From Fervidicoccaceae archaeon (GTDB lineage: Archaea > Thermoproteota > Thermoprotei_A > Sulfolobales > Fervidicoccaceae): a stretch of 64,000 bases of DNA. The stretch is taken from the NCBI GenBank assembly GCA_038734945.1, contig JAVYOA010000001.1, positions 124,001 through 188,000 of the forward strand, written 5' to 3'. The notes below the pieces were generated by a model that saw nothing but the letters and a program-made list of their open reading frames with translations, was not told where the DNA came from and did no database searches. A program made the position numbers and the translations under genes. Positions 27,793-30,915 of the stretch are shown in pieces; the stretch's first letter is position 1, and each line of letters begins with the position of its first letter.

Positions 27793-28214
27793 GCACAGCC
27801 ATGAGAATTTTCAGAGGAATATTGCTTGGGACTTTAACAGGGCTTCTCTACTATGCTGTGTTCTTTCTCCTCATACCAATGCTTCTGCGCTACTACAACA
27901 TTCCAACAGAGGAAGCACCCAGCTTCAGCTCCTCATACCTTCTTCTGGCCCTTGCTCTCATAATAACAATGGAGATAGCAGCCTCTGCACTCCGATTTCC
28001 CCTCTCTCTTCCCCTTTACCTAGCCTCTGCTGCTCTAGCTCTTTACATAATGGGTAGCATAGTTAGCTGGGGGAAGGCATCAGTACAAACAGCGATTTCT
28101 GGAGAGAGCATAAGAATAACCGTGGATGCTTCCCCCCTCATAGCAGCGATAGCTGGTGCATCCATTCTTATCGCTCTTCTCTCTGCTCTGGAAATGCTTG
28201 GAAAGGAGAGCTAG
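27789..28214 (+). CDS. small membrane protein, four TM segments
   Basis: The 141-residue protein has hydrophobic stretches near 10-30, 48-68, 72-92 and 115-135. A short polar loop (SGESIRITVDASP) lies between the last two. It overlaps the preceding gene by 4 bp and converges with the pilin-like gene (4-bp overlap). Family unknown. Confidence 0.68.
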   Translation: MSTAMRIFRGILLGTLTGLLYYAVFFLLIPMLLRYYNIPTEEAPSFSSSYLLLALALIITMEIAASALRFPLSLPLYLASAALALYIMGSIVSWGKASVQTAISGESIRITVDASPLIAAIAGASILIALLSALEMLGKES

Positions 28215-29533
28215 GAGGGAGGCGAATAAACGCAGCCTCCCATTAGATCTCCATAATAGGCTGAAACAAGACTTGTGCCACTGTAAATGAGCACTGTAGC
28301 ATTTGCTATGATGGGAGAGAAGCTGGAAGCATCGCTGTAGATAAATGCCTTGAACATTCCAAGGGAGGGATCATATGTAGCATTGTAAACATTGCCACTG
28401 CTATCAACTACAATTACTTTATATCCCTGCTGTATTCCTGTGAAGTAAACATATAGAGGATCCCTGCTCCTTGTAACATAGATGAAATCAAACGAAGTAT
28501 TGGTGCTACTATAGCTCCCAATTCCTATATATGAGACATTTAGGGGAGAAGAATCGCTGTAAGATGCATATGATTGCTGCGATGCTAAAACGAGAGATCC
28601 TATAGCAGCAGAGGAGCCGTTCTTGGCGAGGTAGCTTTCCAGAAGAACTGGAAGGGAAGCAGAAATGGTTTGCCCCTGGCTCAATCCAAGCCACCTGGAA
28701 GTATATACCCATATGCCTGCCTGCATGAAATTGCTGTTCCGAAAATAAACACCAGAGTCGTAGAAGCTGTTCAGGAAAGAGGTGGATCCCGAGAATAGAA
28801 CGTCAGCCGTGCTTCCCTGCATATCTGAGGCGAGAATCCTGGTTACAACATACACTGAAGAGGGAAAGGAAGAGGTATAGCCATATGCTGTGAGATTCAA
28901 ATAAGCCACATTTTCCCCTGAAGGAAGTGTGCTCGTTCCAGAAACAACGAGAGCTCCCGATTTCCAACTCCATGTGCCGGAAACTGGAACTATTTTTTTC
29001 AAAGAAATGGGATCAGACAAAAAATCGTCATAGGCAATGACGTTGTTCTCAACGAGAGATAGAGAGGGGATCCCATAAGAGGGTGGCTGAGCCACCAAGT
29101 ATGGGCTCAGCGGCACAGAAGCCTGGGTACCGCTCAATGTATGCAGAAGGGCAATGACGCTTCCAGGCACAGAGGAAACTCCATTGACAGCTATTATCCT
29201 GCTCTCCCCCGGCCTTATCACTTCACCAATATAGCTGCTCATGAAGGCGCTTCCATCCCCAAATATAACAAGCACTCTCGATATTATTGCGGGCTCTCCA
29301 TAGCGATTCGTTAAGTTCACACTCAATGTCTTGCTCCCCGGATCATATACATATGTTCCAGAAACAGATCTCATCAGATCCAAGCTTCTCTGCAAAATAC
29401 CTTCTCTCTCTATAGTGCCCTTTATGTACAGCACACCGGCCTGGGTCAGGGAGTAGAGGGAGACAAATATTATGAGAGAGGCAACTATCAGAAAGAGAAT
29501 AGATATGAGTCCAGAGATCCCCCTCTCCCCCAA
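28211..29533 (-). CDS. large pilin-like/adhesin secreted protein
   Basis: The 440-residue protein starts GERGISGLISILFLIVASLI, which has the form of an archaeal class III (type IV pilin-like) signal: basic GERG, then a hydrophobic helix that would be cleaved near G5 and packed in a filament core. The rest is Ser/Tyr/Thr-rich beta sequence, much larger than a usual archaeal pilin, with a final CVYSPPS. It may be a pilus tip adhesin or a pseudopilin-anchored surface protein. No prepilin peptidase is in the window. Confidence 0.75.
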   Translation of the reverse strand: MGERGISGLISILFLIVASLIIFVSLYSLTQAGVLYIKGTIEREGILQRSLDLMRSVSGTYVYDPGSKTLSVNLTNRYGEPAIISRVLVIFGDGSAFMSSYIGEVIRPGESRIIAVNGVSSVPGSVIALLHTLSGTQASVPLSPYLVAQPPSYGIPSLSLVENNVIAYDDFLSDPISLKKIVPVSGTWSWKSGALVVSGTSTLPSGENVAYLNLTAYGYTSSFPSSVYVVTRILASDMQGSTADVLFSGSTSFLNSFYDSGVYFRNSNFMQAGIWVYTSRWLGLSQGQTISASLPVLLESYLAKNGSSAAIGSLVLASQQSYASYSDSSPLNVSYIGIGSYSSTNTSFDFIYVTRSRDPLYVYFTGIQQGYKVIVVDSSGNVYNATYDPSLGMFKAFIYSDASSFSPIIANATVLIYSGTSLVSAYYGDLMGGCVYSPPS

Positions 29534-29844
29534 AAGCCATCTCCCAGAAAACTTTTATTCTCCTTCCTCTATTAAAATCCTTGGACTTCGCGAAGAATGA
29601 TGAGTGTGGCGGTCTCCGAGCCCAAAAGGCAATGAGAGGACATTCAGGAGCCCTTGCTGAGCTTCGCTTGAAATTTCCAAACAACTAGAACAAAATTAGA
29701 CTCAAGAACGGAAGAAAAGGAGATCTGAAGTACCAACCAAACTTCTATTTTTCTCCCCAAACATTATAAAAATATTCTCAAAAATTTGAGCTGATACGCT
29801 TATTTTGCTCTCAACAATCAATTTTCAGAAAAAGGTCTTCTCAC
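29534..29844. other. 311-bp intergenic region with C/D box sRNA candidate and guaB promoter
   Basis: This gene-free stretch holds the sRNA candidate at 29590-29667 with its own TATA-like box (about 29564-29573). AT-rich promoter-like sequence for guaB follows (ATTATAAAAATATT at 29764-29777). I see no further coding sequence. Confidence 0.6.
29590..29667 (+). ncRNA. C/D box sRNA candidate
   Basis: A terminal stem GCGAAG (29590-29595) / CTTCGC (29662-29667) closes on a perfect C box ATGATGA (29597-29603) and D box CTGA (29657-29660), i.e. a kink-turn. Inside are a degenerate D' (CCGA, 29616-29619) and C'-like AATGAGA (29631-29637). Guide regions would be GTGTGGCGGTCT before D' and CATTCAGGAGCCCTTG before D. 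TATA-like CTATTAAAA lies about 25 bases upstream. It probably directs 2'-O-methylation of rRNA or tRNA. Targets were not searched. Confidence 0.62.
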
Positions 29845-30915
29845 ATGCCTGGCTTTCTCAAGAAGCTGGAAGAAGCAGATCTCGCACTTTCCTTCGAAGA
29901 CGTCCTTCTGCTCCCGTCCTACAGTGATGTAAGCTTCAGTGAAATTGAAACATCGACACTGATACCTCCAAGCCTGAAGCTATCTATCCCAATACTCAGC
30001 TCTCCAATGGACACAGTTACAGGGAGAGAAGTTGCTCTCATCCTTGGCTCCATGGGAGGGCTGGGAGTGCTCCCCAGAAACATCCTCCCAGATGCTGCTA
30101 TTTCAATAATTAAGGAAGCAAGAGAGAGGGGAATTCCAATTGCAGCAGCAGTTGGTCCGAGGGATACTGAGCTGGCAAGAAAGCTAATCGACGAGGAAGT
30201 AAGCTGCATAGTTATAGACTCAGCCCATGGACACAGCAAGAGCGTCATAGAGATGACAGCAGAACTCTCCAGATCGGATGTTCCAATAATTTCTGGAAAC
30301 ATAGTAACTGCTGATGCAGCATTAGCTCTGGTCGAGGCTGGAGCTTCAGGACTGAGAGTAGGAATAGGCCCAGGACATGCTTGCACTACTAGGGAAATAG
30401 CAGGAATTGGCTGCCCCCAGCTCACTGCAATAGCTAGAGTTGCTGATGCTGTCTCAGATTCAGATATGGAGGTAGCTGTAATAGCCGATGGAGGTTTTGA
30501 AAAGCCGGCAGATCTCGTTAAAGCAATCGCTGTGGGAGCAGATGCCATCATGCTTGGCTATCTCATAGCATCTAGCCTTGAGGCCCCTGGTGAGAGGGTT
30601 GAGTTGAATGGAAAGTGCTACAAGCGCTATAGAGGGATGGGGAGCCAAGGGGCACTGCAATCCGGCTCCTCTAGATACGGCGAATTCAAAAGAGTTCCTG
30701 AGGGGGTGGAAGGATTAATAGAATGCAGAGGGAGCCTCTCAAGCATAATCGATTTTCTCCTCGGCGGTCTGAAGCAGGGCATGGGATACGTGGGGGCCAG
30801 GAACCTGAGTGAACTTAAGGAGAAAGCCAAGCTGGTGAGAATAACCCCCTCATCCTTCAGAGAGGGAGGACCGAGAGGAATGCTGAGGGATGGGGAATGG
30901 GATGCTTTGAAATAG
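29845..30915 (+). CDS. guaB: IMP dehydrogenase lacking CBS domains
   Basis: The 356-residue TIM-barrel enzyme has LSFEDVLLLP at the N-terminus and ISSPMDTVTG-like LSSPMDTVTG (51-60). The catalytic loop GIGPGHACTTREIAG carries C180 and T182. The flap is YRGMGSQGALQSGSSRYG. It oxidises IMP to XMP. There is no CBS insert between the barrel strands, so regulation by adenine nucleotides through CBS is absent. GMP reductase is less likely because of the operon with guaA. It overlaps the amidohydrolase gene by 19 bp. Confidence 0.9.
   Translation: MPGFLKKLEEADLALSFEDVLLLPSYSDVSFSEIETSTLIPPSLKLSIPILSSPMDTVTGREVALILGSMGGLGVLPRNILPDAAISIIKEARERGIPIAAAVGPRDTELARKLIDEEVSCIVIDSAHGHSKSVIEMTAELSRSDVPIISGNIVTADAALALVEAGASGLRVGIGPGHACTTREIAGIGCPQLTAIARVADAVSDSDMEVAVIADGGFEKPADLVKAIAVGADAIMLGYLIASSLEAPGERVELNGKCYKRYRGMGSQGALQSGSSRYGEFKRVPEGVEGLIECRGSLSSIIDFLLGGLKQGMGYVGARNLSELKEKAKLVRITPSSFREGGPRGMLRDGEWDALK

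Follow-up and report, generated by a model that had tools for sequence, protein, structure and literature searches.

For archaeal box C/D sRNAs the published target rule, as given in the available text of PMC4644070, is an uninterrupted run of nine Watson-Crick pairs spanning the N+5 position. C/D sRNAs that are directed at tRNA are known as well, among them the tRNA-Trp intron guide and the guides for position 34 (available text of PMC7994747), and the same text cites orphan guides as making up 28% of the guides of Pyrobaculum. The locus described here lies in a window of 64,000 nucleotides, the whole stretch of DNA that was analysed. Judged from its sequence and from that of its relatives, it is very probably a real box C/D guide RNA gene, and the same two guide sequences recur in many thermophilic archaea belonging to one order. 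That it is a box C/D sRNA gene with targets other than rRNA we regard as likely. In what follows G000 denotes the genome of the window, G001 that of a sister species, and G006 and G004 those of members of the same family.

A C box, a D box and a GCGAAG/CTTCGC stem are present on the plus strand at 29590-29667, together with a weak pair of inner boxes, as read directly from the sequence and just where the preliminary description had placed them. The 5' half of the stem, GCGAAG (29590-29595), precedes the C box ATGATGA (29597-29603), and the 3' half, CTTCGC (29662-29667), follows the D box CTGA (29657-29660); both boxes agree with the RUGAUGA and CUGA of archaeal box C/D sRNAs. Next to the C box lies the D' guide GTGTGGCGGTCT (29604-29615), assigned by comparison of homologues, which has the 12-base spacer length of such RNAs and is closed by a D' box, CCGA (29616-29619), one change away from CTGA. 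The words GCC (29620-29622) and GGC (29628-29630) flank a weak C' box, ATGAGAG (29632-29638). Both inner boxes are degenerate in the window copy and better formed in many relatives, which have RTGAWGA at the place of C'. The D spacer between C' and D is not 12 but about 18 bases long (29639-29656, by eye and varying with the placement of C'); by eye it measures 17-18 in G001, G004 and G006 and 12 in most of the other relatives read. A 12-base D spacer is typical of active guides and is not a condition of C/D membership. Within the D spacer stands CATTCAGGAGCCC (29641-29653, plus strand), a 13-base complement of the RNase P RNA of the same genome (G000:C9:145182-145194).

The gene sits in the 311 bases between the start of a minus-strand ORF (29533) and that of guaB (29845), a gap that the ORF starts confirm. 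The downstream neighbour (29845-30915, plus strand, 356 amino acids) is called guaB-like after the preliminary description and by eye. The divergent upstream ORF (28211-29533, minus strand, 440 amino acids) begins with MGERGISGLISILFLIVASL, by eye a pilin-like leader, and resembles a secreted or pilin-type protein; it adjoins the sRNA in G001 too. Across the window Rfam gives a single match at its cut-offs, to a tRNA at another place, and none at the sRNA, and over 18 of the 31 archaeal loci found by the pattern scan described below it returned two tRNAs and left the sRNA itself unmatched. Among the Rfam C/D families sR28 comes nearest, with 16 bits where its cut-off would require 39. On its own the RNA has an ordinary fold (z -0.13; 81 of 200 shuffles do equally well), and the case beyond chance therefore rests on conservation rather than on stability.

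A 121-base query finds a match in G001 (E 1e-22) and further ones in G006 and G004, with identical box order in each. At an E of 1 or better 29 of 40 genomes match the same query, many of the weak matches surely by chance. In G001 the gene likewise lies between a guaB-like gene (73% identity over 356 amino acids) and the divergent gene (42% identity); these neighbours were not found in the short loci from the eight other genomes tried. A pattern made of the C box, the D' guide and the D' box, and leaving the D half free, matched 33 contigs of the genome collection, 31 archaeal and two bacterial. Since the pattern itself required the D' core, the identity of that core among the 31 archaeal loci is no evidence, and only features outside the pattern were counted as such. 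One of these is the core of the D guide: AGGAGC occurs within 40 bases in 29 of the 31 loci, as compared to 77 of 5000 40-mers drawn at random from these loci, and the two loci without it (L099 and L122) both belong to the Sulfolobales. Kept out of the alignment were both bacterial matches and L048, whose D' guide begins with a single change. A covariance model was built from 37 rows. At E ≤0.01 this model finds a match in 126 of the order's 197 genomes, a count that includes the seed genomes and whose weakest members may be chance. At 40 further places that were read, most of the variation in the D' guide falls on the first base and on two internal positions, GUGUGG[C/U]GG[U/A/G]C. In one family (G030, G020 and G010; L045, L046 and L048) the sRNA lies no more than about 0.2 kb from a tRNA-Gly(GCC) gene on the opposite strand.

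The terminal stem is compensated in the relatives in a register one base over from that of the window. For the four pairs beside the boxes in the register of most relatives, 67.4% of the cells are standard pairs, 49 double changes occur and the covariation score is 0.613, and none of these three measures was equalled by any of 500 shuffles or by any slid register. The register was picked after a slide by one had shown an excess in an earlier test, and as the rows of the alignment are related species the shuffles overstate the case somewhat. In the number of further pair types the alignment does not exceed its shuffles (272 of 500). The window's own register shows no excess (44.4%; 97 of 500 shuffles).

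These observations bear on the two ways in which the locus itself could be read differently. That there is no gene, and that the box words arose by chance in a spacer, would fit the ordinary fold and the silence of Rfam; it is most improbable, however, in view of a D guide that is conserved outside the pattern, a covarying stem, synteny and the spread through the order, the same evidence on which the original reading as a C/D box sRNA is now backed. A weightier alternative is that the sRNA is real but is processed from a longer transcript and has no promoter of its own, to which we give a considerable chance, though somewhat below half. The preliminary description had the RNA independently promoted from a TATA-like box about 25 bases upstream. 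The element in question, TATTAAAA (29570-29577, direction undecided), indeed has its centre about 24 bases before the C box, yet only about 16 before the stem, and because of this spacing transcription that begins 26 bases beyond the element would start within the C box. A second TATA-like candidate promoter element, CTTTTATT (29552-29559), could be read on either strand. By eye both stretches are common to the window and G001, which speaks against processing from a longer transcript, as does the lack of any plus-strand ORF of at least 60 amino acids between 28214 and 29845. Then again, both could instead serve the divergent minus-strand gene. A TATA-like word occurs 15-45 bases upstream of the stem in 13 of 37 copies, the window's included, as compared to 6 of 37 downstream, and for C/D genes of six model archaea the available text of PMC7994747 gives 20% with a TATA-like motif within 50 nt upstream. 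A promoter belonging to the sRNA is possible.

What, then, do the two guides recognize? In G000 they were compared with SSU and LSU rRNA, 41 tRNA genes, the SRP RNA and the RNase P RNA; 5S rRNA was not part of this set, nor were tRNA-Trp, tRNA-Gln and tRNA-Lys(CTT) among the tRNA genes found. Neither guide forms nine pairs over N+5 with the rRNAs, the 41 tRNAs or the SRP RNA. The longest Watson-Crick runs over N+5 in rRNA are 7 for the D' guide and 8 for the D guide, both in LSU, and the runs with the SRP RNA are 5 and 6. The proposal that the RNA guides rRNA or tRNA modification, with complementarity of at least 9-10 bases, is therefore not borne out by the SSU, LSU and 41 tRNA genes of G000, where no Watson-Crick run exceeds 8, and the earlier interpretation as a whole is partly supported. 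For the D' guide a nine-pair partner is absent from the RNase P RNA as well, and hence from all of these RNAs. The acceptor of tRNA-Gly was considered as its target and set aside: it offers 11 pairs in G000, two of them wobbles, but 11% of shuffles equal this, and in G027 the acceptor differs while the guide core stays the same. The SRP RNA was likewise dismissed, as nothing consistent emerged over the genomes and the lone good score is that of the D guide of G026 (9.8, with G028 left out). The sole copy of the exact complement GGGCTCCTAAG in G037, G028 and G018 is the sRNA itself, and the same holds for GWCCGCCACAC in G000. Across families the complement of the D' guide, G-H-CC-R-CCA-CA, appears to resemble tRNA 3' ends.

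The D guide, by contrast with what was found in rRNA and tRNA, pairs over N+5 with the RNase P RNA of G000 through 13 unbroken Watson-Crick bases, GGGCUCCUGAAUG. In the Rfam structure line the site falls on the hairpin that comes second when counted from the 5' end, where it takes in the 5' strand, the loop and a few flanking bases; this hairpin we take to be P8. None of 3000 guide shuffles reaches 13, the longest run being 12 anywhere in 8,776 nt of target sequence (five times) and 11 within the RNase P RNA. The duplex energy is -28.1 kcal/mol, and none of 300 shuffles is as strong, the nearest having -26.8. In another shuffle run one of 400 gave an unexplained run of 18, to be set against none above 12 in the 3000, and 5 of 3000 random 18-mers of the window gave 14 or more; the 18-mer outliers are likely to be caused by the window's tRNA-Val, which is part of the target pool. 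For pairing, the guide would have to compete with the hairpin's own two strands.

A match of this strength is restricted to G000, with a weaker form kept in G001, where one bulge breaks the pairing and where, by eye, a change of the loop base from G to A is met by a change from C to U in the guide. Within the family the pairing of each species' own guide with its RNase P RNA is unremarkable, with shuffles as strong in 19% of cases for G001 (-17.7), 5% for G006 (-18.1) and 63% for G004 (-11.4; 300 shuffles each), and outside the family 23 to 68 of 100 shuffles equal it in seven genomes. RNase P RNA as a target throughout the order is thus unsupported outside G000. In addition, guides from other species also pair well with the RNase P RNA of G000 (to -24.3), because this RNA contains GGGCUCCU, the complement of the common core, so that a chance match to an old guide core is possible. 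Taken by itself, RNase P RNA as the partner of the D guide is a tentative proposal, which we hold somewhat less probable than not; that the pairing is real and lineage-bound falls only a little short of an even chance.

By analogy with established archaeal C/D biology, the sRNA would fold into one K-turn, formed by C and D, and a second weaker one, formed by C' and D', and would bind L7Ae, Nop5 and fibrillarin and so present its two guides. For the D guide of this species the RNase P RNA hairpin, with its 13 pairs, is the best candidate partner; there the guide might direct 2'-O-methylation of the guanine at N+5 or might serve as a folding chaperone, although a D spacer of 18 bases makes efficient methylation less certain. 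In such a scheme an old sRNA family, perhaps aimed at tRNA before, would in this genus have had its D guide re-aimed, within a C/D guide RNP, at an RNase P hairpin. We consider this scheme in its entirety rather unlikely; if true, the re-aimed guide would link the C/D machinery to the maturation of tRNA 5' ends.

Two other accounts of the targets have to be weighed against it. One makes tRNA-Arg(CCU) the ancestral target of both guides, with the D guide on the anticodon loop (N+5 at C32) or the intron and the D' guide on the 3' end (N+5 at C72); the window copy would then have lost the D part of this pairing and the RNase P match would be chance. It draws on 186 tRNAs from 15 sources, each scored with its own guides, among which tRNA-Arg(CCU) provides the top two matches by length for D and the top one for D', and on a subset of 97 tRNAs from seven genomes outside the window's family, where this isoacceptor has the longest mean run of 28 for both guides. 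It was present in four of the seven genomes, namely G037, G021, G028 and G018, three of one family and one of another, with runs of 9, 7, 7 and 8 for D and of 8, 8, 9 and 8 for D'; in 20000 random draws of one tRNA per genome, sums as high came up 5 times for D and 4 times for D'. Moreover, the sole genomic match to GWCCGCCACAC in G017 is the 3' end of tRNA-Arg(CCU). However, this tRNA was singled out after the fact among the 28 isoacceptors, from sets that are partial, having been selected by likeness to tRNA-Gly; a score that counts wobbles gives no D' enrichment for it (5556 of 20000); the D' match is common to other tRNAs, for example Arg(UCU) of G028 with 9 pairs; and position -3 of D' mismatches C70 in all four genomes. 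The runs also reach only 4-6 in G000, G004 and G006, and in G017 that of the D guide is 5. Setting the enrichment in relatives against this failure in the window's family, the wider target may be tRNA-Arg(CCU) and the window copy may have moved away from it, but as a full account we find it rather unlikely. In G017 (L188, 1419-1508) the match to the D' complement covers the 3' end and the trailer of an intron-bearing tRNA-Arg(CCU), and the pre-tRNA-Arg(CCU) introns of G028 and G037 (L232 and L208) contain GGGG(U/C)UCCU, to which the D guide is complementary over 11 bases in G028, one of them a wobble, and over 9 in G037. Elsewhere, an ARAGORN call of Met(cat) at L030 1501-1588 by eye resembles a tRNA-Thr(UGU) whose D arm carries an insertion.

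The other account is that of a conventional rRNA guide with a site that escaped notice because it tolerates mismatches or needs both guides together. According to the available text of PMC4644070, 163 of 489 archaeal C/D sRNAs confirmed by RNA-seq, about one third, have no clear rRNA match, and weak paired sites do exist near the 3' end of LSU, where G019, scored with the family consensus guide instead of its own gene sequence, forms 10 contiguous pairs. Yet when the guides were scored along an alignment of 11 rRNA operons, G019 again with its consensus guide, none of the roughly 4600 columns stands out (best z 3.9, runners-up 3.8 and 3.7), so that the LSU sites, not being above the background of alignment columns, were rejected as targets, and the D' guide of G000 scores worse in rRNA than 99% of shuffles. 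We hold an rRNA guide to be improbable. The LSU matches in G021, G032 and G031 (L072, L080 and L081) are 0.6-1.2 kb longer than that of G000, probably on account of rRNA introns.

Among the matches listed from the open literature, titles and abstract beginnings showed no report of this sRNA family or of a C/D guide aimed at RNase P RNA, and the listed matches to the guide strings include no archaeal paper by title. The family may be included among the 128 Ignicoccus sRNAs in the supplement of PMC4644070. What emerges is a widespread and well-kept C/D sRNA family, unreached by the Rfam cut-offs in the window, whose guides lack a clear rRNA target and have two candidate partners, RNase P RNA in this genus and tRNA-Arg(CCU) in relatives; either of these, if true, would widen the known targets of archaeal C/D RNPs.

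Compared with the archaeal box C/D sRNAs of the sR families (Dennis 2015, available text of PMC4644070), the gene agrees in its C and D boxes, in its inner D' and C' boxes, though these are degenerate in the window copy, its terminal stem, its 12-base D' spacer and its size. It differs in the window's D spacer of about 18 instead of 12 bases and in having no nine-pair partner in the tested rRNA and tRNA of G000, and no Rfam family, sR28 being the nearest, reaches its cut-off at the window copy. With the tRNA-directed C/D sRNAs covered in the available text of PMC7994747 it shares that its copies in four relatives match tRNA-Arg(CCU), in part at the anticodon loop; different from them, it is a separate gene, both of its guides may touch one tRNA, and the tRNA match was not seen in the window's species. 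Finally, like the orphan C/D guides of the same text it carries conserved guides without a recognised target, but whereas those are kept within one genus, the guides of this family are kept across the families of an order.
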